Assembly (NCBI GenBank): GCA_025056745.1
Contig: JANWVQ010000082.1
Location: 1-56,695, forward strand
DNA from: Ignavibacterium sp.
GTDB taxonomy: Bacteria > Bacteroidota > Ignavibacteria > Ignavibacteriales > Ignavibacteriaceae
Length of the DNA stretch: 56,695 nt
Direction: 5' to 3'
Shown: piece by piece, positions 2,259 through 52,032 of the stretch
Position numbering within the stretch: position 1 is the stretch's first letter
How the letters are laid out: each line of letters opens with the position of its first letter
The notes under the pieces: generated by a model
The model's database searches: none
The model's input: only the letters and a program-made list of their open reading frames with translations
What the model was told of the DNA's origin: nothing
Program-made: the position numbers and the translations under genes

Positions 2259-3638
2259 ATGAAAAACTTAATTACATTTATCGTTTTGCTTTCCACAATT
2301 TCCATTTTCTCTCAGCAAAACTTTACAACAAGCCTTCATTATACTCGCGAAGGTAAAAACACAGCTTACAAAGCTGAGAATGGAGGGATGCAATTAATCA
2401 CCAACATCCCAATGTCCCAATTAGCTTGTAAAAAATGTCATTCATCAACAGGATTATATCCAAATGGACAGCCAATAAATCCTGCTACTTATCAACCGAG
2501 CTGTAATGATTGCCATAATTTTGCTGCTGGAACATCAGTACAAGAGCAAACTTGTCTTAATTGTCATAAAAGACAATTGGATGAGAGAACAGCATATCCA
2601 AATCAGGATGTTCATTCAACTACTGCAAATTTGAAGTGTTACAACTGCCACTCTAAACAGGAGTTGCACGGTGATGACGGAGTTGCTTACATTTCTGCAA
2701 AACAACCTGGAGCAGTTAAAGTTAAATGTGTTAACTGCCATCCAAATCCGTCTCCAAATACATCACACTCAATTCATAATGCAAAAGTTGAATGTTCCGT
2801 TTGCCACGCAGTTTCTATGCTCACTTGTGCTGGATGCCATTTTGAAACCGCAGTAGCCACTGGAAAAAACAGAGCTATTAATCAAGTTAAAGATTATAGA
2901 TTACTCGTAAAGAAAGATGGAAAGGTTCATCTTGGCGGATTTGTAACTCATAGCTACAATAACAAAACTAATTATATTATCTCAAGCTATACTTCTCATA
3001 TAATTAAGAAAAATGCAACAACTTGCGGCGATTGTCATAATAATATGGGAGCAGGCGTTCCCGCTATAAATGAATATAATAACACAGGCTCAATAACATT
3101 AGCTAAGTGGAATGCAACCACAAAGAAAATTGATGGTCCAACTGGAGTGGTTCCATTAGTAAGAGATTGGAAGACAGCATTTAAAGTCGATCACGTTACC
3201 TATACTGGTGATCCTACCGTCTTCCCAGGAGATCCTAATCTTTGGGTTTTCTTAAAATCAACAACTGATAATTCTCATTTATACTTCTGCGAACCATTAG
3301 ATTCATCTACATTGGCTAAGATGGGAGTAACCCGTTTCCCAAGTTCTGTTGAATTTGCAAATGATAATATTCCAACTCAATTCACTTTGAAACAAAATTA
3401 CCCAAATCCATTCAATCCAGAAACGATTATCGAATTTTCAATACCACAAAGTGCTTATGTAACACTCAAAGTTTATGATTCAGTTGGTAATGAAGTTGCT
3501 GAGTTATTTAATGGTGAGAGAGGAGCTGGAAATTATAAAGTCAATTTTGATGGTAAAAATCTTTCAAGCGGTGTTTATTATGTTAAAATGACTGCAGGTA
3601 ATTATTCAAAAACTATTAAAATGGTTTTAATGAGATAG
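2259..3638 (+). CDS. T9SS-sorted multihaem c-type cytochrome (8 CxxCH)
   Basis: The 459-residue protein has a signal peptide (about residues 1-19, ending FSQQ) and eight CxxCH haem sites between about residues 57 and 260 (CKKCH, CNDCH, CLNCH, CYNCH, CVNCH, CSVCH, CAGCH, CGDCH). A haem-free stretch follows. The C-terminal type A sorting domain spans about residues 375-459 (NYPNPFNP start, SSGVYYVKM, KTIKMVLMR end). The protein should be exported by Sec, loaded with haem in the periplasm, then passed through the type IX system to the cell surface or medium. The electron partner is unknown. The gene stands alone, ends at a strong terminator, and is a plausible surface partner of the electron-transfer operon at 45505-52032 (inference). 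Confidence 0.85.
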   Translation: MKNLITFIVLLSTISIFSQQNFTTSLHYTREGKNTAYKAENGGMQLITNIPMSQLACKKCHSSTGLYPNGQPINPATYQPSCNDCHNFAAGTSVQEQTCLNCHKRQLDERTAYPNQDVHSTTANLKCYNCHSKQELHGDDGVAYISAKQPGAVKVKCVNCHPNPSPNTSHSIHNAKVECSVCHAVSMLTCAGCHFETAVATGKNRAINQVKDYRLLVKKDGKVHLGGFVTHSYNNKTNYIISSYTSHIIKKNATTCGDCHNNMGAGVPAINEYNNTGSITLAKWNATTKKIDGPTGVVPLVRDWKTAFKVDHVTYTGDPTVFPGDPNLWVFLKSTTDNSHLYFCEPLDSSTLAKMGVTRFPSSVEFANDNIPTQFTLKQNYPNPFNPETIIEFSIPQSAYVTLKVYDSVGNEVAELFNGERGAGNYKVNFDGKNLSSGVYYVKMTAGNYSKTIKMVLMR

Positions 3639-6575: not shown

Positions 6576-8963
6576 ATGAGAAAATATTTATTTACCTTAA
6601 TTACCATTCTCCTTTTATCTTCACTTAGCCTGGCACAGGTTCGTGCAAAGATTGTTACCGAACCAATTTCTCCCAAAAGGCTAACGAACTTAGGATTGAC
6701 GGGGGTAACAAATTCAGTTTCAAATGGACTCAATGTAGTTGCAAAAGAGACATTTGTTTACCTTTCAGCAAGAAATATTGGAAGTACTGCTCCAATAACT
6801 TCAGCAACATTCACACTTCAGTCAAAACCTACTGGCTCAACTGCTGTTTTACAAGCTGTCCCAGGACAATCATTCTGGACGATGCTAAAACCAGATGTTA
6901 ATGGTCAGTATGTCGTAGCTCTAAATATAGTAACATCCTCCGGAAGCCACGATACAACTCTCACAATATATTCTTCAAATTATATGGGAGTTGGAAATTT
7001 TGATGGAGTTTCAGGATTTGGATGTACTAGTTGTCATAGTTCCCATACTTGGTTTACAAACATTTATGACAGATGGAAAAACACAGCTCACGCAAATATG
7101 TTCAAAACAAGAATTACTACTGGTCCTTCTGTTTACAACACTAGCTGCTTTAAGTGTCACACTACTGGATACAACTTTAACAATGCTGCCAATAACAACG
7201 GTTTTGATGATGTTGCTGCTTCATTAGGTTGGGTTTGGTACGGTCCACCTCATATCAGTAAATGGGATTCCCTAAAAACAAATTATCCTGGATTAGTAAA
7301 ATTTGCTACCATTGGATGTGAAAGTTGTCACGGTGCGAGCGGATCCCACCCAGGGACATTACCTGGCTCTGCATTGAAAGCTAAGAATTTAATTGAAACC
7401 TCGGGTAATTGTGCACAATGTCACGATGAACCTTGGAGATACAATAAATATGCTCAATGGGAAAACTCTCTTCACGACCAAGCTCTCTGGTCAAATTCCT
7501 TTGCTCAAGGCTCTGCATCACAAAATAATAATCTTCAAAACTGTATTAGATGTCACGACGGACAAGGTTATATTAACTTCACAAAAGGCTTAACTACAAA
7601 TACAACAGGATGGACTTCAGCAAATCACGTTGGCATTGGATGCGCAACTTGTCACGATCCTCACGGAAACAGCAATCCAGCATCTTTGAGAAGCTCTCCA
7701 ACAAGTGCTGATACATTAGGAAATGGATATAGTCACGTTGGATTGGGTGGTAAAGGTGCAATTTGTATGGATTGTCATAAAGGAAGAAGAGATAATGTAA
7801 GCTATACTCAAACAAGTGTAACATCATCCACTTGGGGTCCACACTATTCAGTTCAAACAGACGTTTTCTTAGGACAAAATGCAGCTCAATTTCAAACTCC
7901 ATATATTAGTGGTGGACATAGATATGCACTTGCTGATGGATGTGTAACTTGCCACGCTGTTGCTACTGTTGATACTGGTAATGTTAATAGAGATTTAGTC
8001 GGTGGTCACTCATTTAGACTACGTAATCCAGCTACAAACTATTATCACACTACTTCTTGTACTCCTTGCCACGGAAACGTTACAAGCTGGCATTCATTTA
8101 TGGCTCTAATGGATTATGATCAGGATGGAACTGTTGAAAGCATTCCTAATGAATTAGATGGTTTGTTACAGCAAATCAGAATCTTATTACCTCCAACCGG
8201 CTTGGATTCTATTTCTTGGCAACAGATTGGAGCATTAAACGACCTTACTATAAAGAAAGCATATTATAACTATCAGATGATTAAAAACGATGGTAGCTAT
8301 GGAATGCATAATACCAAATTCACCTTTGATGTTCTATTAAAGACCAGAGCTGCTTTAGGTGCAGTCATACCTGTTGAATTACTATCATTCAATTCAGAGC
8401 TTAAAGGCAATAAGGTCGTTTTAAATTGGGAGACCGCTACAGAGACAAATAACTCAGGTTTCGAAATCGAGCGAAAGGCTGGTTCAACCTGGACAAAGAT
8501 TGGTTTTGTTAAGGGCAATGGAACAACATCAGAAATATCTAAGTATTCATTCACTGATAATCCAAAAGCTGCTGGATTAAATGGTAAAGTTTATTATCGT
8601 CTCAAACAAATTGATTATAATGGTCAATTTGTTTATACAAGAGAAGTTGAAGTTGATCTAAGTTCAATTGTAGATAATTATTCTTTATCACAAAATTATC
8701 CAAATCCATTTAATCCATCTACAAAGATTAGATTCACTATACCATTTGATAGTAATGTTAAATTGACAATTTATAACATTGCTGGCGAAATGATTAAAGA
8801 AATCGTCAATGGTAATTTCAGAGCTGGTGAGCACGAGGTTACAGTTAGCCTTAATGACATTAAGGGTGCTGCATCTGGAATTTATATCTATTCAATTAAT
8901 GCAGTATCCAACGATGGGCAGAGAACGTTTAATCAAACTAAGAAAATGGTATTATTGAAGTAA
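6576..8963 (+). CDS. T9SS-sorted multihaem c-type cytochrome (9 CxxCH), large
   Basis: The 795-residue protein has a signal peptide (about 1-20, ending LAQ), then a beta-rich Ig-like region to about 140. Nine CxxCH sites lie between about residues 150 and 499 (CTSCH, CFKCH, CESCH, CAQCH, CIRCH, CATCH, CMDCH, CVTCH, CTPCH). A fibronectin-like segment follows (VELLSFNSELKGNKVVLNWE, about 605-700), then a type A sorting domain (NYPNPFNPSTKI, ending KKMVLLK). Multihaem proteins of this layout are exported electron carriers or haem oxidoreductases. The tag predicts a cell-surface location. The order adhesive domain, haem region, Ig-like domain, sorting signal suggests anchoring to the outer surface. 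The gene is monocistronic and ends at a strong terminator. Confidence 0.85.
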   Translation: MRKYLFTLITILLLSSLSLAQVRAKIVTEPISPKRLTNLGLTGVTNSVSNGLNVVAKETFVYLSARNIGSTAPITSATFTLQSKPTGSTAVLQAVPGQSFWTMLKPDVNGQYVVALNIVTSSGSHDTTLTIYSSNYMGVGNFDGVSGFGCTSCHSSHTWFTNIYDRWKNTAHANMFKTRITTGPSVYNTSCFKCHTTGYNFNNAANNNGFDDVAASLGWVWYGPPHISKWDSLKTNYPGLVKFATIGCESCHGASGSHPGTLPGSALKAKNLIETSGNCAQCHDEPWRYNKYAQWENSLHDQALWSNSFAQGSASQNNNLQNCIRCHDGQGYINFTKGLTTNTTGWTSANHVGIGCATCHDPHGNSNPASLRSSPTSADTLGNGYSHVGLGGKGAICMDCHKGRRDNVSYTQTSVTSSTWGPHYSVQTDVFLGQNAAQFQTPYISGGHRYALADGCVTCHAVATVDTGNVNRDLVGGHSFRLRNPATNYYHTTSCTPCHGNVTSWHSFMALMDYDQDGTVESIPNELDGLLQQIRILLPPTGLDSISWQQIGALNDLTIKKAYYNYQMIKNDGSYGMHNTKFTFDVLLKTRAALGAVIPVELLSFNSELKGNKVVLNWETATETNNSGFEIERKAGSTWTKIGFVKGNGTTSEISKYSFTDNPKAAGLNGKVYYRLKQIDYNGQFVYTREVEVDLSSIVDNYSLSQNYPNPFNPSTKIRFTIPFDSNVKLTIYNIAGEMIKEIVNGNFRAGEHEVTVSLNDIKGAASGIYIYSINAVSNDGQRTFNQTKKMVLLK

Positions 8964-45504: not shown

Positions 45505-46359
45505 ATGAAATTTACAAAAAGACCTTTAATACTATTTTATTTTCTTGTAGCCATATCTTTTACAATAACCATCACCTATTATGGATTTGATTACTACACA
45601 TTACCGCTAAAAGAAAGATTTTATAGTTCAAAACATCAATTACTGAATCCAAGTGGAGAATTCGGACATTTGTTTGGAATAGTGGGAAGTGTTTTAATTA
45701 CTTTTGGAGTTCTATCGTATGTTATCAGAAAAAGATGGAGAAAATTAATAAGATTTAGTTATTTAAAGTATTGGTTGGAGTTTCATATTTTCTTGTGTTC
45801 TTTGGGTTCATTATTAATTTTATTTCATACAGCTTTTAAATTTGGTGGCATCATTTCGATTGGATTTTGGTCTTTGGTAGTTGTTGTTACAAGTGGAATT
45901 ATTGGAAGAATGATTTATATTCAAATACCACGAACTTTACAAGGAGATAAATTAGCAAAGTCAGAAATCGAAAAAGAACTTATTCAAAATCTTAGCAAAA
46001 TAAATAATAAAATTCTTGATGATATTAAAATCTATCTTACTTATGACTCACAATCCCAAATCATTAAGTCAAGCTTTATTGCAAATCTGAAATCAATAAT
46101 CTATCAACATAAAATCCAAAGAGAAAAAATAAAGTCAATAAAAAAGACAGTTGAAAAGATTAATATTGATTCAAATCAGAAATCTGTACTGATGAATGAT
46201 ATAAAAAAAATACTTTCTCTTCAATCCAAAATAGTTTTATACAATTCTTTTGAAATTCTCTTTAAGCAATGGCATATTTTTCATCTACCCTTTGCAATAA
46301 CAATGTTTTTTTTGATGATATTGCACATTATAATTGTAATGATTTTTAGGGCAAATTAA
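45505..46359 (+). CDS. Membrane dihaem cytochrome b-like protein
   Basis: I do not recognise a named family. The 284-residue protein has about five membrane helices: roughly 8-28, 52-74, 89-110, 115-138 and 257-281. His94 and His108 in helix 3, and His260 and His274 in helix 5, form two pairs 14 residues apart. That is the geometry by which two helices hold two haem b groups in cytochrome b-type proteins. His55 and His257 are extra candidates. A charged helical region (about 145-250) faces the cytoplasm or periplasm. First gene of the five-gene electron-transfer operon. Haem binding is inference from His spacing. Confidence 0.7.
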   Translation: MKFTKRPLILFYFLVAISFTITITYYGFDYYTLPLKERFYSSKHQLLNPSGEFGHLFGIVGSVLITFGVLSYVIRKRWRKLIRFSYLKYWLEFHIFLCSLGSLLILFHTAFKFGGIISIGFWSLVVVVTSGIIGRMIYIQIPRTLQGDKLAKSEIEKELIQNLSKINNKILDDIKIYLTYDSQSQIIKSSFIANLKSIIYQHKIQREKIKSIKKTVEKINIDSNQKSVLMNDIKKILSLQSKIVLYNSFEILFKQWHIFHLPFAITMFFLMILHIIIVMIFRAN

Positions 46360-46368
46360 AATAAAACC

Positions 46369-47682
46369 TTGGAATCTTTTTTAATTTATTTAGCAATTGT
46401 AATTATCCTACTTCTAATTGTTAAAATTTATCTCTTAACCCAAAATAAAAAGAGTAAAAAAACTATTATTAAAATCAATAAAGCAAAACAAGAGGGTCTT
46501 TTTGAACCTGTTTCCTTGCATCCAGTTATTGATCCAAATAGATGTATTGGAACTGCTGCTTGTATCAGTGCTTGTCCTGAAAAAGATATTTTAGGTTTAC
46601 TTAATAACAAAGCAGTAACTATAAATGCCGCAAGATGTGTAGGACACGGAGCTTGTTCTTTAGCTTGCCCTATGGATGCAATTTCATTAGTTATTGGGAC
46701 AGAAAAAAGAGGAGTGGAAATTCCATTTATCTCTCCAGAATTTGAAACCAATATACCAATGCTTTTTATCGCAGGTGAACTTGGAGGTATGGGTTTAATA
46801 AAAAATGCTGTCGAACAAGGTAAGCAAGCAATAGATAATATTTACAAAAAATTAAATAAAAATCATTCAGCTGAATTTGATGTTGGAATTGTTGGAAGTG
46901 GCCCTGCGGGAATATCTGCTTCCTTAAACTCTAAAAAATTAGGACTAAGATTTATCACTTTTGAACAATATAGTATTGGAGGAACAGTTTATAATTTCCC
47001 AAGGAATAAAATTGTTATGACATCACCAATGACTTTACCATTATATGGAAAAGTAAACGCAACTGAAATTTCAAAAGATAAATTAATCTCGCTCTGGCTT
47101 GAAATATTAAAAAAGTATGATATCAAAATCCTTGAAAACACAAAAGTTTCAGATATAATAAGAGAAAATGATATTTTCATTATCAAAACAGACTCAAAAA
47201 TTTATTCAGCTGCTGCAGTTTTGCTTGCAATTGGCAGAAGAGGGACTCCAAGGAAACTTGGTGTGCCAGGGGAAGAAAAATCCAAAGTTTACTATAGATT
47301 ATTAGACCCTAATGCTATTTCAAATAAAAATATTTTAATTGTTGGAGGAGGAGATTCTGCCATAGAAGCAGCCATTTCCCTTTTCAACTCTGAAAACAAA
47401 ATAACTCTCTCTTATCGAGGTAAGGAATTTTCAAGAGTCAAAGAAAAAAATTTTAATACAATCAATGAATTAATAAGAAATAATAAAATAGTATTTTTAG
47501 CTGAAACTAATGTTAAAGCAATTCACGATGACTATGTCGAATTAATAAACAAAAATTCGGAGATTATTGAAATAAAAAATGATTTTGTCTATATTTTCAT
47601 TGGTGGTGAGTTGCCGAATGATTTTTTGAAAAAAATTGGAATTAGTATTACTAAAAAGTTTGGTGAAAAAGTTGTGAGTTAA
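46369..47682 (+). CDS. Membrane-anchored Fe-S / FAD / NAD(P) oxidoreductase
   Basis: The 437-residue protein starts with TTG and has one N-terminal helix (about 3-24), then KKSKK, which places the rest in the cytoplasm. Two ferredoxin-type motifs follow: CIGTAACISACP (Cys59, 65, 69) and CVGHGACSLACP (Cys90, 96, 100). Both lack the usual second Cys (Thr62, His93). An FAD/NAD(P) domain of thioredoxin-reductase/YpdA-like type follows, with GIVGSGPAG (about 173-181), NFPRNKIVMTSPMTLPLYG and IVGGGDSAIEAA (about 324-335). No redox CxxC is present, so it is not a disulfide reductase. It probably oxidises NAD(P)H and passes electrons through Fe-S clusters to the cytochrome b. Confidence 0.85.
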   Translation: MESFLIYLAIVIILLLIVKIYLLTQNKKSKKTIIKINKAKQEGLFEPVSLHPVIDPNRCIGTAACISACPEKDILGLLNNKAVTINAARCVGHGACSLACPMDAISLVIGTEKRGVEIPFISPEFETNIPMLFIAGELGGMGLIKNAVEQGKQAIDNIYKKLNKNHSAEFDVGIVGSGPAGISASLNSKKLGLRFITFEQYSIGGTVYNFPRNKIVMTSPMTLPLYGKVNATEISKDKLISLWLEILKKYDIKILENTKVSDIIRENDIFIIKTDSKIYSAAAVLLAIGRRGTPRKLGVPGEEKSKVYYRLLDPNAISNKNILIVGGGDSAIEAAISLFNSENKITLSYRGKEFSRVKEKNFNTINELIRNNKIVFLAETNVKAIHDDYVELINKNSEIIEIKNDFVYIFIGGELPNDFLKKIGISITKKFGEKVVS

Positions 47683-47684
47683 AC

Positions 47685-49226
47685 TTGAAAAAAATTTATT
47701 TTCTTTTATTTGCTTTTTATCTTCATTTATATCCTCAAATATCTCCTGGAGATCTAAGCAATGCTCATAGTAAATTGGAAGGACTTAAAAATTGTATTAA
47801 ATGTCATAATCCCGGGAAGGGATTATCAAATCAAAAGTGTTTGGATTGTCATCAATCAATAAAAGAAAAGATAAAACTAAATAAAGGTTATCACTCGTCC
47901 TCAGAAGTCAAAAATAAAAACTGTTGGCAGTGTCATTCAGAGCATCACGGAAGAGATTTTAGGTTAATTAATTTCAACGAAAAAGAATTCAAACACGAAA
48001 AAGCAGGCTTTCCTCTTGAAGGGAAACACAATAAACTATTGTGTAAAGATTGTCATAATACAAGATTCATTATTGATAAAAATATTAAGAAAGAAAAAAC
48101 ATTTCTAGGATTAAGTCAAGATTGTAAAAATTGTCACAAAGATGTTCATCTTGGTTCAGCAAAAGAAAATTGTTCAATTTGCCACAACTCAGAAAATTTT
48201 ACAAACATAAAACAATTTGATCACAATAAAACGGGATTTGACTTAATCGGATCTCATAAAAATATCAAGTGTGTTAAGTGCCATTTAAAGGAACAACTTA
48301 ACAATGAAACAATAATCATTTTCTCAAAGATCAAATCTGGAAATTGTACTAATTGTCATAGGGATATTCATAATGGTAAATTTGGTAATAACTGTCTTAA
48401 ATGTCATAATCAAGAGTCATTTTTAAGCATTAATAAAGTCAATTTTGATCACTCGAAAACAAGGTTTGAACTTTTAGGAAAACACAAGAATGTAAATTGT
48501 AATCAATGTCATAAACAAAAATTATCAGATAAACCAAAATTTGAAAAATGTAACTTTTGCCATAGTGATTACCATAATGGTCAATTAAATAAATATGGCG
48601 ATTGTAAAGAATGCCACAATGAATATGGGTTCAGTCCATCTCTTTTTAGTTTAGAGAAACACAATAAAACAAAGTTTCCTTTATTAGGCTCTCATATAAA
48701 TGTTGAATGCAATAAATGTCATTATGTAAATCAATCTTGGAATTTTGTTTTCAATAATCTTAGTTGTGAAAGTTGTCATCGTAATATTCACGGTGATGAA
48801 ATAAAAAGTATAGATTCAAAAGATGATTTGTGCATAAATTGTCATAATTCTTATTCTTGGGATTTAATTGGCTTTGATCATAATTCGACAAAGTTCAAAT
48901 TATCAGGTAAGCACCTTGAAACAAACTGCAAGAATTGCCACTTCAAAAATCAAACTTGGAATTTCAAATCAATTACACAGGATTGCTTGTCCTGTCATAG
49001 TGACAATCATAATAAACAGTTTTCGAGTAATGATTGCAACAATTGTCATTCATTCGACGATTGGACTGCAATTTATTTTGACCACAATAGAACCAGATTT
49101 AAATTAGAGGGGGCACACAAAAAAATTAAATGTGAAAAATGCCACGAAAGATTAATTGATAAAGATGGCAGAAGTTATTTTCTATACAAAACAGGGAAAA
49201 TAAAATGCTCCGACTGTCATTCTTAA
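47685..49226 (+). CDS. 20-haem c-type cytochrome
   Basis: The 513-residue protein has a signal peptide (about 1-18) and 20 CxxCH sites from about residue 37 to 512. Most lie in repeats of the form FDHNxTxFxLxGxHxxxxCxxCH, with a second CxxCH after a short linker. Each module also supplies His residues (FDH, GKH) as likely distal haem ligands. Such proteins are nanowire-like periplasmic electron carriers. No sorting domain is present, so it should stay in the periplasm or pass to the barrel protein. TTG start 2 bases after the previous stop. It is Asn/Lys-rich. Confidence 0.88.
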   Translation: MKKIYFLLFAFYLHLYPQISPGDLSNAHSKLEGLKNCIKCHNPGKGLSNQKCLDCHQSIKEKIKLNKGYHSSSEVKNKNCWQCHSEHHGRDFRLINFNEKEFKHEKAGFPLEGKHNKLLCKDCHNTRFIIDKNIKKEKTFLGLSQDCKNCHKDVHLGSAKENCSICHNSENFTNIKQFDHNKTGFDLIGSHKNIKCVKCHLKEQLNNETIIIFSKIKSGNCTNCHRDIHNGKFGNNCLKCHNQESFLSINKVNFDHSKTRFELLGKHKNVNCNQCHKQKLSDKPKFEKCNFCHSDYHNGQLNKYGDCKECHNEYGFSPSLFSLEKHNKTKFPLLGSHINVECNKCHYVNQSWNFVFNNLSCESCHRNIHGDEIKSIDSKDDLCINCHNSYSWDLIGFDHNSTKFKLSGKHLETNCKNCHFKNQTWNFKSITQDCLSCHSDNHNKQFSSNDCNNCHSFDDWTAIYFDHNRTRFKLEGAHKKIKCEKCHERLIDKDGRSYFLYKTGKIKCSDCHS

Positions 49227-50476
49227 TTATACTAATAATATGCAAAGTCATCTTAGCACAAAAATCTCCTCACGGCAAAAACTTTAAAGTCGAATGTGAA
49301 GATTGTCATACTCAATTTTCTTGGAAAGTGAATCTCGAAGAAATAAAGTTTGACCACAATAAAACAAAATTTGAATTATTAGGTCAACATAAAAATATTG
49401 ATTGTAAATCCTGCCATATAGATCTGAAATTTGAACAGACAAAAATTAATTGCTCTGAATGCCACATTGATGTTCATAAAAACACTTTGGGTCAAGATTG
49501 TAAAAGATGTCATACAAGTTTTTCGTGGGTAATTGAAGATATTAATAGAATTCATACAAATAGCAGATTTCCATTAGTTGGAAAACATAAAACAATTAAT
49601 TGTCAGCAATGTCATAAATTTTATTCAACTTTAAAGTTTGATATTCTCGATATTGAATGTTATAGCTGTCATAGGAAAGACTATGAATCAGCTTCTAACC
49701 CAAATCATTTATTATCAGATTTTCCAAAGAATTGCACAGATTGCCACAATATAAATAACCAAAGTTGGTCAGGATATTTTGATCATAATTTTTTCCCATT
49801 ATTAGGTGGACACTCACAAAGAAAATGCTCGAGTTGTCACTTAAACAACAATTTCACAAAGATAGATAGCAAATGTCAGAGCTGCCATTTGAATGATTTT
49901 AACAGATCTCAAAATCCAAATCATATACGATTAAATATTTCATACGAATGTAATATTTGTCATTCATTAAATCCTCGATGGAAACCAGCTTTGTTTCCAT
50001 TACATAATAATTTTTATCCCTTAACTGGCAGACACAACTTAATTAAAGATAAATGTTTTGATTGTCACAAGGGAAATTATTCAAGCACACCAAGAGAATG
50101 TGTTGGATGTCATCTTACAAATTTTAATCAAACAACTAGTCCAAATCATTCATTACTAAATTTTCCTCAGCAGTGCGAAACTTGTCATACTACTAATTCT
50201 TGGATTCCTTCAAACTTTAATCACGATCAAATGTATTTTCCGATTTTTTCTGGAAAACATAGAAATACTTGGAATGATTGTAGAATATGCCATATTAATA
50301 CTGCAAACTATGGCATATTTTCTTGTCTTAATTGTCACGAACATCGAAAATCAAGAATGGACGACAAACACAGAGATGTCCCGGGATATGTTTACGAAAG
50401 TAATGCTTGTTTGAGTTGTCATCCAACTGGGACAAAACCTAATTTGAACATAAAATTTAATAGTACCGAACAATAA
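49205..50476 (+). CDS. 16-haem c-type cytochrome
   Basis: The 423-residue protein has a signal peptide (about 1-18, ending LAQ) and 16 CxxCH sites from about residue 31 to 409. The first half uses the same FDHNKTKFELLGQH module as its 20-haem neighbour. The second half has a variant, with SNPNHLLSDFP / SPNHSLLNFP repeats before CxxCH. A KHRDVPGY motif near the end recalls other large cytochromes. Its first 22 bases overlap the end of the previous gene in another frame. It is a probable second periplasmic or outer-membrane-associated electron carrier. Confidence 0.87.
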   Translation: MLRLSFLIILIICKVILAQKSPHGKNFKVECEDCHTQFSWKVNLEEIKFDHNKTKFELLGQHKNIDCKSCHIDLKFEQTKINCSECHIDVHKNTLGQDCKRCHTSFSWVIEDINRIHTNSRFPLVGKHKTINCQQCHKFYSTLKFDILDIECYSCHRKDYESASNPNHLLSDFPKNCTDCHNINNQSWSGYFDHNFFPLLGGHSQRKCSSCHLNNNFTKIDSKCQSCHLNDFNRSQNPNHIRLNISYECNICHSLNPRWKPALFPLHNNFYPLTGRHNLIKDKCFDCHKGNYSSTPRECVGCHLTNFNQTTSPNHSLLNFPQQCETCHTTNSWIPSNFNHDQMYFPIFSGKHRNTWNDCRICHINTANYGIFSCLNCHEHRKSRMDDKHRDVPGYVYESNACLSCHPTGTKPNLNIKFNSTEQ

Positions 50477-52032
50477 TGTTGGCCTTACTTTTATTTTTAA
50501 TTTTTTCAACTTTAACTTTTTCTCAGAATTTAAGAAAAGAGATTGGAATTATTTCTTTTCGTTCAAGTCAAAATTTGTATGCTAAATTCAACTCAACTGA
50601 AAAAATAAATATCAATGACACGATTTATCTATCATCAAATAATACAGCTGTTGGTATAGTAAAATTCAAATCATTAAACTCAATTTCCGCAAGTATTATA
50701 AACAGTATCGAAGTTGATGATTCTGTCTTTGTTATACTGAATGAACCTATAAATATGATCCCAGATATAAAAGATGATTTAATTAAAAAAGATTCTGTTG
50801 AAAAATCTTTTACAACTTTATTTGATAGTAATATATCATCTAAAGAAAATACTAAATTAAGATTTTCATTTCAATCTTATGGTTATGTTAATAATTATAA
50901 AGAACAATCCAGGCAAAAAATTAAAACAAGTTTTTTAGATAAAAATTTTTTCGATGAAAATTTATCGTTTGAATTAAATTTTAACTATTACATTAACAAT
51001 TACTCCTCCAGTAATAAAGACAGATTAAAAGACAATTTAAGGATTTTTCAAATTCAACTAGATTATCAATTAGATGATGGAATAAATTTATTATTTGGAA
51101 GATCATTTAATCCTGTTATAAAAAGTTTAGATGTTATTGATGGTTTTCAAATTATTAGAACTACAAATAATCAAAGCTTTGGTTTGATATTTGGAAGTAG
51201 ACCTAATTTAAGAGATTATTGGTTCAATGTCCACTTGATACAAATTGGATTATTTTACAACCGCATTGATTCCATTAATTCAAATTCAATTCAGAACTCC
51301 ATTGGATTTGTTGAGCAGACTAATAATTTCAAGAGCGATCGAAGATTTGTTTTCATAGAACATTCAAATAATTTAATACCATCTACAACAGCGTTTTTTA
51401 TGTCTGAAATAGATTTTTTCAATTTAACAAATCTTGGAATAAAAGAACAATTAAATATTACTTCTTTATATACTGGCTTTAACATAAGAGTTATAAAACA
51501 TTTAAATTTTAATTTAAGCTTTGACTCCAGAAAAAATTTTTTCTATTTGAATGAATATCGTAATCAGATTGATTCATTAATAAATTATAATTTTAGGAAT
51601 GGAATAAAAATTTTCTCATCTTATTCACCTATAAATGGATTGAGGTTATCAGCCTTTTATTATCAGTCTAAGATTAAGAATGAAAGAAAAAGCTCAAGCA
51701 ATATTGGCGCATCAATTTTTTATTATTCGGATTTTTTGTTTAATTCAAGTTTTAGTGTATCATTAAATAATTACAAAACAAATTTTATTAATGGGAACAA
51801 TTTTTCTTTTACAATCTCGCGGGAGTTCTCTGAAATTGGTAACCTAAGCCTTACTTATAAAAACTATGAATTCAATTCATCAACTAACAGATTTTTATCA
51901 TCATATCAATCTTTAGAATTAGGTTGCTCATTGAATTTATCTAGGTCATACAATTTGTATTCGACATTCGAAAAAAACTTCATTAACAAAATTTATAATT
52001 ATTTTTCTTTTGACATTTCTTACAGATTATAG
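50476..52032 (+). CDS. Outer-membrane beta-barrel protein of the cytochrome operon
   Basis: The 518-residue protein has a signal peptide (about 1-16, ending FSQ). A small N-terminal beta domain follows (about 20-95; IGIISFRSSQNLYAKF, NINDTIYLSS), resembling an SH3-like fold. Then comes a long region of alternating amphipathic strands (for example LRFSFQSYGYV, FSFTISREF, LSLTYKNYEFN) ending in FSFDISYRL, a typical barrel terminus. It has no CxxCH. By position it could be the porin sheath for the neighbouring cytochromes. TAATG overlap with the previous gene. Family unknown to me. Confidence 0.72.
   Translation: MLALLLFLIFSTLTFSQNLRKEIGIISFRSSQNLYAKFNSTEKININDTIYLSSNNTAVGIVKFKSLNSISASIINSIEVDDSVFVILNEPINMIPDIKDDLIKKDSVEKSFTTLFDSNISSKENTKLRFSFQSYGYVNNYKEQSRQKIKTSFLDKNFFDENLSFELNFNYYINNYSSSNKDRLKDNLRIFQIQLDYQLDDGINLLFGRSFNPVIKSLDVIDGFQIIRTTNNQSFGLIFGSRPNLRDYWFNVHLIQIGLFYNRIDSINSNSIQNSIGFVEQTNNFKSDRRFVFIEHSNNLIPSTTAFFMSEIDFFNLTNLGIKEQLNITSLYTGFNIRVIKHLNFNLSFDSRKNFFYLNEYRNQIDSLINYNFRNGIKIFSSYSPINGLRLSAFYYQSKIKNERKSSSNIGASIFYYSDFLFNSSFSVSLNNYKTNFINGNNFSFTISREFSEIGNLSLTYKNYEFNSSTNRFLSSYQSLELGCSLNLSRSYNLYSTFEKNFINKIYNYFSFDISYRL

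Follow-up and report, generated by a model that had tools for sequence, protein, structure and literature searches.

A PCC3-like gene cluster in Ignavibacterium and other Bacteroidota predicts an NAD(P)H-linked outer-membrane electron conduit

Porin-cytochrome clusters of the PCC3 class have been described in Alpha-, Beta- and Gammaproteobacteria as sets of four genes (He et al. 2017, PMC5566968; PMC12442390; Gallionellaceae survey, PMC10734462). They encode an inner-membrane protein (IMP) of about 300 aa with five TM helices, an SGXXG motif on TM4 and WX3HX13H motifs on TM3 and TM5, a periplasmic cytochrome of about 21-27 haems, a second, extracellular cytochrome with a large and variable number of haems, and a porin with up to 42 reported strands; the cytochromes have about 26 aa per haem. 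PCC3 was found in Fe(II) oxidisers, and the published model draws the IMP to quinone and electron flow inward (PMC5566968). However, the function of PCC3 is stated to be untested (PMC12442390). In Sideroxydans CL21, one PCC3 inner-membrane gene rises as cells become able to oxidise iron (PMC12442390), whereas both PCC3 clusters of S. lithotrophicus ES-1 are down-regulated on Fe(II) (PMC8788666).

We analysed a 56,695-nucleotide stretch of DNA from Ignavibacterium sp. (GenBank assembly GCA_025056745.1, contig JANWVQ010000082.1, positions 1 to 56,695; hereafter the window), in which an initial annotation, made from sequence alone, had proposed a five-gene trans-envelope electron-transfer conduit. 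The gene set that it described is real. Five intact, tightly packed ORFs lie on the + strand at 45505-46359, 46369-47682, 47685-49226, 49205-50476 and 50476-52032, and are separated in turn by a 9-base gap, a 2-base gap, a 22-base overlap and a 1-base overlap. They encode an IMP, a membrane-anchored Fe-S/FAD/NAD(P) protein, two multihaem cytochromes c and a predicted outer-membrane β-barrel.

The IMP (45505-46359) has 284 aa and, by hydropathy and a structural model (pLDDT 83), five helices (2-32, 52-77, 87-113, 115-139 and 223-281), with a loop of about 110 residues between helices 4 and 5 that is probably cytoplasmic. It matches no Pfam family above its cut-off, but has pairs of histidines 14 residues apart on two helices (H94/H108 and H260/H274), which are invariant in 69 aligned rows. 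These histidines could ligate two b haems, H94/H260 on the cytoplasmic side and H108/H274 on the periplasmic side, although haem b ligation is judged from His spacing only, and topology and haem pairing are inferences. The PCC3 motifs are present at W90/H94/H108, S130-G134 and W256/H260/H274. The full signature (two WX3HX13H plus SGxxG) occurs in 25 of 25 rows of one alignment (A2), in 67 of 69 rows of a second IMP alignment (A5) and in 18 of 25 loci collected later (see below), and at least two HX13H motifs are found in all of these. The protein was not compared by sequence with the S. lithotrophicus ES-1 PCC3 proteins (Slit_0867-0870), nor were the other members of the cluster. A Foldseek search with the IMP model gave no match under E 0.001. 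VIA-align listed cytochrome b561 (4o6y, Z 6.8, rmsd 4.1, 139 aligned) and Dcytb (5zle, Z 6.1, rmsd 4.3, 138 aligned) below unrelated helical rows of up to Z 10.4, so we did not use these matches. The His pairing also recalls the NADPH oxidase/ferric reductase proteins (NOX/FRE), but the ferric reductase transmembrane domain (PF01794) is not among the Pfam matches of the IMP at E values up to 1, the flavoprotein is a separate TrxR-like fold with Fe-S centres, and electrons would continue into cytochromes c.

The second protein (46369-47682; 437 aa) has one N-terminal membrane segment, matches Pyr_redox_3 (1e-41) and Fer4_10 (7e-10), and carries two ferredoxin-like motifs (C59xxT..C65..C69 and C90xxH93..C96..C100). 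One correction is needed here: both motifs of the window protein lack the usual second cysteine, so they are not two ordinary four-Cys [4Fe-4S] sites. The second cysteine of the first cluster is T in 41, S in 37, V in 1 and C in 1 of 80 flavoproteins, and C in 14, S in 9 and A in 1 of the 24 from the loci collected later; in two of those 24 (loci L185 and L189), the called ORF shows no N-terminal membrane segment. The closest family models of the flavin domain are YpdA and thioredoxin reductase, which could suggest that the protein feeds a trans-envelope thiol/disulfide relay. However, the score against YpdA is 159 bits against a cut-off of 339.9, the six cysteines of the window protein all lie in the Fe-S motifs, no CxxC follows the Fe-S motifs in 24 of 24 flavoproteins, and the partners are haem proteins. 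We therefore rejected the thiol-reductase reading, which is very improbable and already disfavoured by sequence.

The two cytochromes are c7-type proteins with apparent signal peptides and contain exactly 20 CXXCH motifs in 513 aa (cytA, 47685-49226; 25.7 aa per haem) and 16 in 423 aa (cytB, 49205-50476), a wire-like spacing of about 26 residues per haem. CytA is probably a periplasmic wire, though this location is inferred, and corresponds to the PCC3 periplasmic cytochrome in haem number and spacing. Among 88 complete distinct cytA sequences, 84 have 20 or 23 haems, three have 19 and one has 17. CytB, with five tri-haem units plus one, is the variable-length member: the second cytochrome ranges from about 10 to 70 haems across loci. 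Of 83 such sequences, 73 have 3n+1 haems when counted by CX2-4CH, and 61 by CXXCH, so it grows by tri-haem modules. This count leaves out the two other window cytochromes (8 and 9 haems) but still includes some fragments of split cytA genes (for example in loci L054, L066 and L137), and, as the sequences are related, we give no p-value. Extra cytochromes with 9 haems, which is not 3n+1, occur in L185, L186 and L189, and one with 15 haems in L171. The variability of cytB is as in the second PCC3 cytochrome, but its cellular location was not assayed here, which leaves the correspondence to an extracellular cytochrome undecided. A crude lipobox pattern hit 51 of 88 cytA and 3 of 85 other cytochromes, but was discarded as evidence of lipoprotein anchors, since it can be satisfied by the first haem cysteine.

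The last protein (50476-52032; 518 aa) is modelled (mean pLDDT 82) with a small N-terminal β-domain (about 20-88) and a 22-strand barrel (about 126-518), and has broad structural matches to barrels, with Z up to 17.8. A barrel with a multihaem cytochrome crossing the outer membrane is also found in MtrCAB, PioAB and MtoAB. However, those systems have a decahaem MtrA and a quinol dehydrogenase, whereas cytA has 20 haems and scores 41.7 bits against a cut-off of 192.2 for the DmsE family (TIGR03508), so the Mtr/Dms reading was rejected. Porin-cytochrome logic is present in the same class of bacteria as well, in the Omb-Oma-Omc type exemplified by Ignavibacterium album IALB_1837-1840 (PMC4245776), which is described with a 14-haem periplasmic cytochrome and without mention of an IMP or flavoprotein; no direct sequence comparison was made with it.

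A lack of synteny among relatives had been named in advance as an outcome that would overturn the conduit proposal, and we found the opposite: synteny holds in most intact loci, beyond what chance would produce. Of 24 relatives with an intact IMP, 23 keep the flavoprotein and 21 the cytochromes. The exceptions are locus L033 (genome G006), which has neither flavoprotein nor cytochromes downstream of its IMP, and L042 and L050, which keep IMP and flavoprotein without cytochromes, so that pair may have another use. Among 80 loci picked by the flavoprotein, the IMP lies upstream in 75 of 75 with room, the first cytochrome is present in 73 of 75, the second in 67 of 70 and the barrel in 49 of 52. 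(An automated count gave 70 of 75 for the IMP next to the flavoprotein, but the other five loci, L094, L114, L123, L129 and L140, show it where the called flavoprotein ORF is longer; likewise, it gave 72 of 75 and 66 of 70 for the cytochromes, but L088 shows both.) To sample the phylum from the IMP instead, we took 40 near-full-length hits in 395 sampled genomes and examined the 25 not retrieved before, although at least three of these (L167, L168 and L171) are on contigs equal in size to those of loci from the earlier scan (L085, L063 and L119), so the sets overlap. All 25 have a 19-, 20- or 23-haem cytochrome and a second multihaem one, and 24 have the flavoprotein (the contig of the 25th ends first), although in 16 of those 24, in deep lineages, it lies at the far end of the cluster. 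The set recurs in Ignavibacteria and Bacteroidota, including the cultured Emticicia oligotrophica DSM 17448, Mangrovibacterium lignilyticum and Hanstruepera marina. In E. oligotrophica DSM 17448, the cluster is EMTOL_RS21090-RS21110 on plasmid pEMTOL02, with EMTOL_RS21095 as the flavoprotein. Genes beside the cluster in relatives resemble dapF, ABM-like, PHP and TPR genes, of which only the TPR name comes from a family search. We also considered relocation or horizontal transfer of the window copy, but did not retain this reading, as the flavoprotein tree gives the window a long branch (0.70) and no firm neighbour.

The initial annotation's interpretation, a five-part conduit with an NAD(P)H-type flavoprotein, is supported as the best reading, with two qualifications. 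It had not recognised the combination, but the conduit class is not unknown, since the IMP, the cytochrome sizes and the barrel fit PCC3. It had also read the gene order as tracing a path from cytoplasmic NAD(P)H to the outer membrane, but order does not by itself trace the path, given that the flavoprotein gene comes last in deep lineages. What differs from PCC3 as published is that a membrane-anchored Fe-S/FAD/NAD(P) protein is a regular fifth member, that the hosts are Bacteroidota/Ignavibacteria, and that the barrel has 22 predicted strands. We did not find the dedicated NAD(P)H flavoprotein described: no paper was found that mentions both Ignavibacteria and PCC3, and none describing this cluster was recognised in literature searches that did not extend to subscription journals or preprints, so that we do not claim its absence from print. 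Two further papers examined (PMC5539420 and PMC12503164) gave nothing on this subject.

We consider it more likely than not that the cluster is a PCC3-like conduit with its own NAD(P)H dehydrogenase. In this view, NAD(P)H in the cytoplasm would reduce the FAD of the anchored flavoprotein, whose two Fe-S centres would pass electrons to the inner b haem of the IMP (H94/H260) and then to the outer one (H108/H274); the 20-haem cytochrome would carry them across the periplasm, and the modular second cytochrome, with the barrel, through and beyond the outer membrane to an extracellular acceptor. Our analysis establishes the gene content, conserved synteny, motifs, tri-haem modularity and predicted folds, whereas we infer haem b binding, NAD(P)H as donor (which rests on fold homology), which cytochrome sits in the barrel, the outward direction, and a role in disposing of excess reductant when preferred acceptors are short; direction, acceptor and activity are not shown, and there are no expression, biochemical or electrochemical data. 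Outward flow is energetically easier from about -320 mV and is helped by an inside-negative potential.

Support for an NAD(P)H-to-haem-b role comes from three plasmids of Sphingobium, Methylophaga and Salinimonas (Proteobacteria), in which a homologous IMP (hhalign probability 99.1) stands next to an unrelated, FNR-type flavoprotein (FAD_binding_6, NAD_binding_1, Fer2) and a c7-type cytochrome with 7 haems, beside metal-handling genes and without a barrel. He et al. (2017) also describe PCC4 and IMP-multihaem clusters without porin, and the plasmid operons may be of the latter kind. An alternative, which we regard as unlikely, is that the IMP exchanges electrons with the quinone pool, as proposed for PCC3, and that the flavoprotein is a side input or regulator. 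The four-gene PCC3 and locus L033, with an IMP but no flavoprotein, are consistent with this, but the retention of the flavoprotein despite changed gene order, and the different NAD-type flavoprotein beside homologous IMPs elsewhere, argue against it; no quinone site was tested. Still less likely is an inward conduit delivering electrons from an extracellular donor to NAD(P)+ for biosynthesis. Multihaem wires can run both ways, and the inward PCC3 model and the Sideroxydans CL21 observation favour this reading, but for ordinary Fe(II) donors the transfer would be uphill to NAD(P)+ and against the membrane potential, and the ES-1 clusters are down-regulated on Fe(II). Finally, the very large haem numbers could suggest a periplasmic or surface electron store (capacitor roles are suggested in PMC11495043 and PMC10734462) or a haem-iron store. 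We think this very unlikely, because storage would not need the wide barrel that accompanies the cytochromes in 19 of 21 loci with cytochromes (the other two are cut by contig ends) and in 49 of 52 among the loci picked by the flavoprotein.

With near-full-length IMP genes in 40 of 395 sampled genomes of the phylum, this may be a common electron exit in Bacteroidota. Cytochromes of this phylum with more than 100 haem motifs were flagged as undescribed (PMC11495043), and the cluster offers a plausible genetic context for such proteins. It also bears on the open question of what PCC3 does, and a dedicated NAD(P)H arm makes a direct test possible in the cultured bacteria named above. A further possibility, which the evidence permits but which we put forward only tentatively, is that this is a widespread Bacteroidota/Ignavibacteria conduit class that wires NAD(P)H directly, without quinone, to the cell exterior: a split NADPH-oxidase-like electron exporter (a flavoprotein with a conserved CxxH Fe-S motif plus a di-haem b protein) joined to a c-haem wire whose length evolves in steps of three haems. 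By extension, PCC3 conduits elsewhere would be reductant exporters with a different or detached dehydrogenase, not Fe(II) oxidases.

The five tightly packed ORFs that the initial annotation had reported are present as it described them, and the two cytochromes hold exactly 20 and 16 CXXCH motifs in 513 and 423 residues. Searches against Pfam gave c7/c3-type cytochrome domains for both cytochromes, and a pyridine-nucleotide flavin domain plus ferredoxin domains for the second protein. For the first protein, a predicted inner-membrane protein (IMP), no family matched above its cut-off, and the last gave a sub-threshold porin match. Flanking genes with Pfam matches are of sugar-nucleotide and polysaccharide type and look unrelated. 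The window lies in a 2.7-Mb assembly, which also has two haem-copper oxidase genes and cytochrome c assembly genes. Flavoproteins from genomes of the same family agree in sequence with those of three MAGs, two called Ignavibacteria (MNYQ01000038 and JAUXVN010000013) and one called only Bacteroidetes (JAKBMG010000117). The host is therefore probably an Ignavibacteria relative, although this is an inference. The window additionally contains two further multihaem cytochromes, at 2259-3638 (+) and 6576-8963 (+), with 8 and 9 CXXCH motifs, respectively. Both have c7-like domains and a C-terminal type IX secretion sorting domain (Por_Secre_tail; the second is just under that family's cut-off), and are thus candidate surface cytochromes that could take electrons from the conduit.

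Since an absence of synteny in relatives had been put forward in advance as evidence that would overturn the conduit reading, we examined the gene neighbourhood in three samples. Among the nearest relatives, 24 loci have an intact IMP. Of these, 23 keep the flavoprotein (the exception being locus L033), 21 keep the multihaem cytochromes (the exceptions being L033, L042 and L050; in L054 the first cytochrome gene is split into two ORFs), and 19 keep the barrel, with two more cut by contig ends. In L042 and L050, the IMP and flavoprotein are kept although both cytochromes and the barrel are gone, so this pair may serve another acceptor. We next scanned named genomes with the flavoprotein and analysed the 80 best of at least 560 matches. 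The listed organisms are Bacteroidota or Ignavibacteria, except for one labelled only ‘uncultured bacterium’, and the set is kept in most: after a recount, the IMP is found in 75 of 75 loci with room upstream, the first cytochrome in 73 of 75, the second in 67 of 70 and the barrel in 49 of 52.

To avoid selecting loci by the flavoprotein, we also sampled 395 genomes of the phylum with the IMP profile. A match with an E-value of 0.001 or better was found in 46, of which 40 were near full length (one of these with stops), and we analysed the 25 of those 40 that had not been retrieved previously. All 25 have a 19-, 20- or 23-haem cytochrome and a second multihaem cytochrome, while 22 show a barrel and three end before it. 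The flavoprotein lies between the IMP and the cytochromes in 8 loci, and follows the barrel at the far end of the cluster in 16; the 25th contig (L190) ends inside the barrel. The retention of a gene through such a reshuffle argues for a shared function.

The IMP is predicted to have five long helices. H94 and H108 on the third helix, and H260 and H274 on the fifth, are invariant in 69 aligned rows. It was previously reported that all IMPs of the PCC3 and PCC4 porin-cytochrome clusters have five helices, SGXXG on the fourth and WX3HX13H on the third and fifth, and this arrangement was compared with ferric reductase/NADPH oxidase and cytochrome b (PMC5566968). The window protein fits each of these points. 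The basic stretch preceding helix 3 suggests that H94/H260 lie near the cytoplasm and H108/H274 near the periplasm, although this topology is an inference.

The flavoprotein is closest to YpdA-type bacillithiol reductases and thioredoxin reductases, but has no CxxC in its flavin part, so a thiol reductase of that kind is unlikely. Its second ferredoxin motif is CxxHxxCxxxC in all sequences of three overlapping sets, which comprise 24, 80 and 24 sequences. The first motif has Ser or Thr in place of the second cysteine in the window's group, and Cys in most deep lineages. A [3Fe-4S] or a His-ligated [4Fe-4S] cluster is possible, but the cluster type was not examined.

Independent support for a link to NAD(P)H comes from plasmids of the Proteobacteria Sphingobium, Methylophaga and Salinimonas (loci L144 3246-7033, L142 10073-13850 and L145 4204-7690). 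In these plasmids, a homologous IMP (profile comparison probability 99.1, E 5e-19; hmmsearch E-values 1e-15 to 1e-25) is located directly after a protein with FAD, NAD and 2Fe-2S domains of the ferredoxin-reductase type, and directly before a 7-haem cytochrome, without a barrel. (Pfam was searched with the Methylophaga protein; the other two are about 40% identical to it.) A membrane segment is predicted in two of the three. The function of this operon, which lies near heavy-metal genes and in two of the three cases includes DUF1622, is unknown. Its flavoprotein shows no significant similarity to the Emticicia representative of the flavoprotein studied here. Two unrelated flavoprotein families beside the same kind of IMP would be expected if the IMP takes electrons from NAD(P)H-fed flavoproteins.

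Of 88 complete, distinct first cytochromes, 75 have 20 haems and 9 have 23. The second cytochrome ranges up to 70 haems in 1738 residues, with a repeating spacing near 33-15-25 residues; the 70-haem example is encoded between the first cytochrome and the barrel in a Bacteroidales MAG (locus L075, 12923-18139). When CX2-4CH motifs are counted, 73 of 83 have a haem number that is 1 mod 3, so length changes by whole tri-haem c7 modules, and the window copy, at 5x3+1, is among the short ones. The periplasmic PCC3 cytochromes of Gallionellaceae are reported to have 21, 24 and 27 haems (PMC10734462), which are also steps of three. The two cytochrome genes overlap by 19-34 bases in 63 of 64 adjacent pairs (mode 22; one pair by 82), which suggests conserved coupled translation. 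Solved relatives of the first cytochrome include 3ov0 (E 2e-9), the c7-repeat protein GSU1996, and chain A of 6r2q (E 7e-5), from the MtrCAB complex, although this chain is labelled otherwise in the search listing.

The predicted structure of the barrel protein has a small N-terminal beta domain and 22 strands between residues 126 and 518. It aligns along its length with porins, ushers and TonB receptors, as any wide barrel would. The barrel sequence diverges fastest, with a mean column identity of 41% against 54-69%.

In many relatives, the set lies behind dapF and a small ABM-like gene, with a TPR gene inside, and in some a PHP-type gene follows the barrel. Two same-genus genomes keep only a 32-34-residue IMP remnant beside the TPR gene, and two same-family genomes have a broken IMP (together, loci L057, L058, L059 and L060), indicating recurrent loss. 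In the window's own genome, the corresponding site is empty: dapF, the small ABM-like gene, the TPR gene and the PHP-type gene occur in a row with nothing between (contig C41, locus L160, 3758-6657). Thus, the window copy sits at another site, without the TPR gene, and the conduit is readily lost. A cultured Emticicia carries the full set on a plasmid, with cytochromes of 23 and 40 haems and all five proteins matching the family profiles, beside a ResB/CcsA fusion for cytochrome assembly.

The interpretation offered in the initial annotation, of a trans-envelope electron conduit that includes an NAD(P)H-type flavoprotein, is supported by these results. The gene content, conserved synteny, motifs, tri-haem steps and predicted folds come directly from the sequence analysis, whereas the direction of electron flow, the donor, the acceptor and the activity itself are inferred. 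The porin-cytochrome class is already known, but PCC3 as published has no flavoprotein, and we therefore regard the present set as a new variant; sequences of PCC3 proteins were not compared directly with those studied here. In our judgement, it works like a porin-cytochrome conduit of the PCC3 kind with an NAD(P)H dehydrogenase attached.
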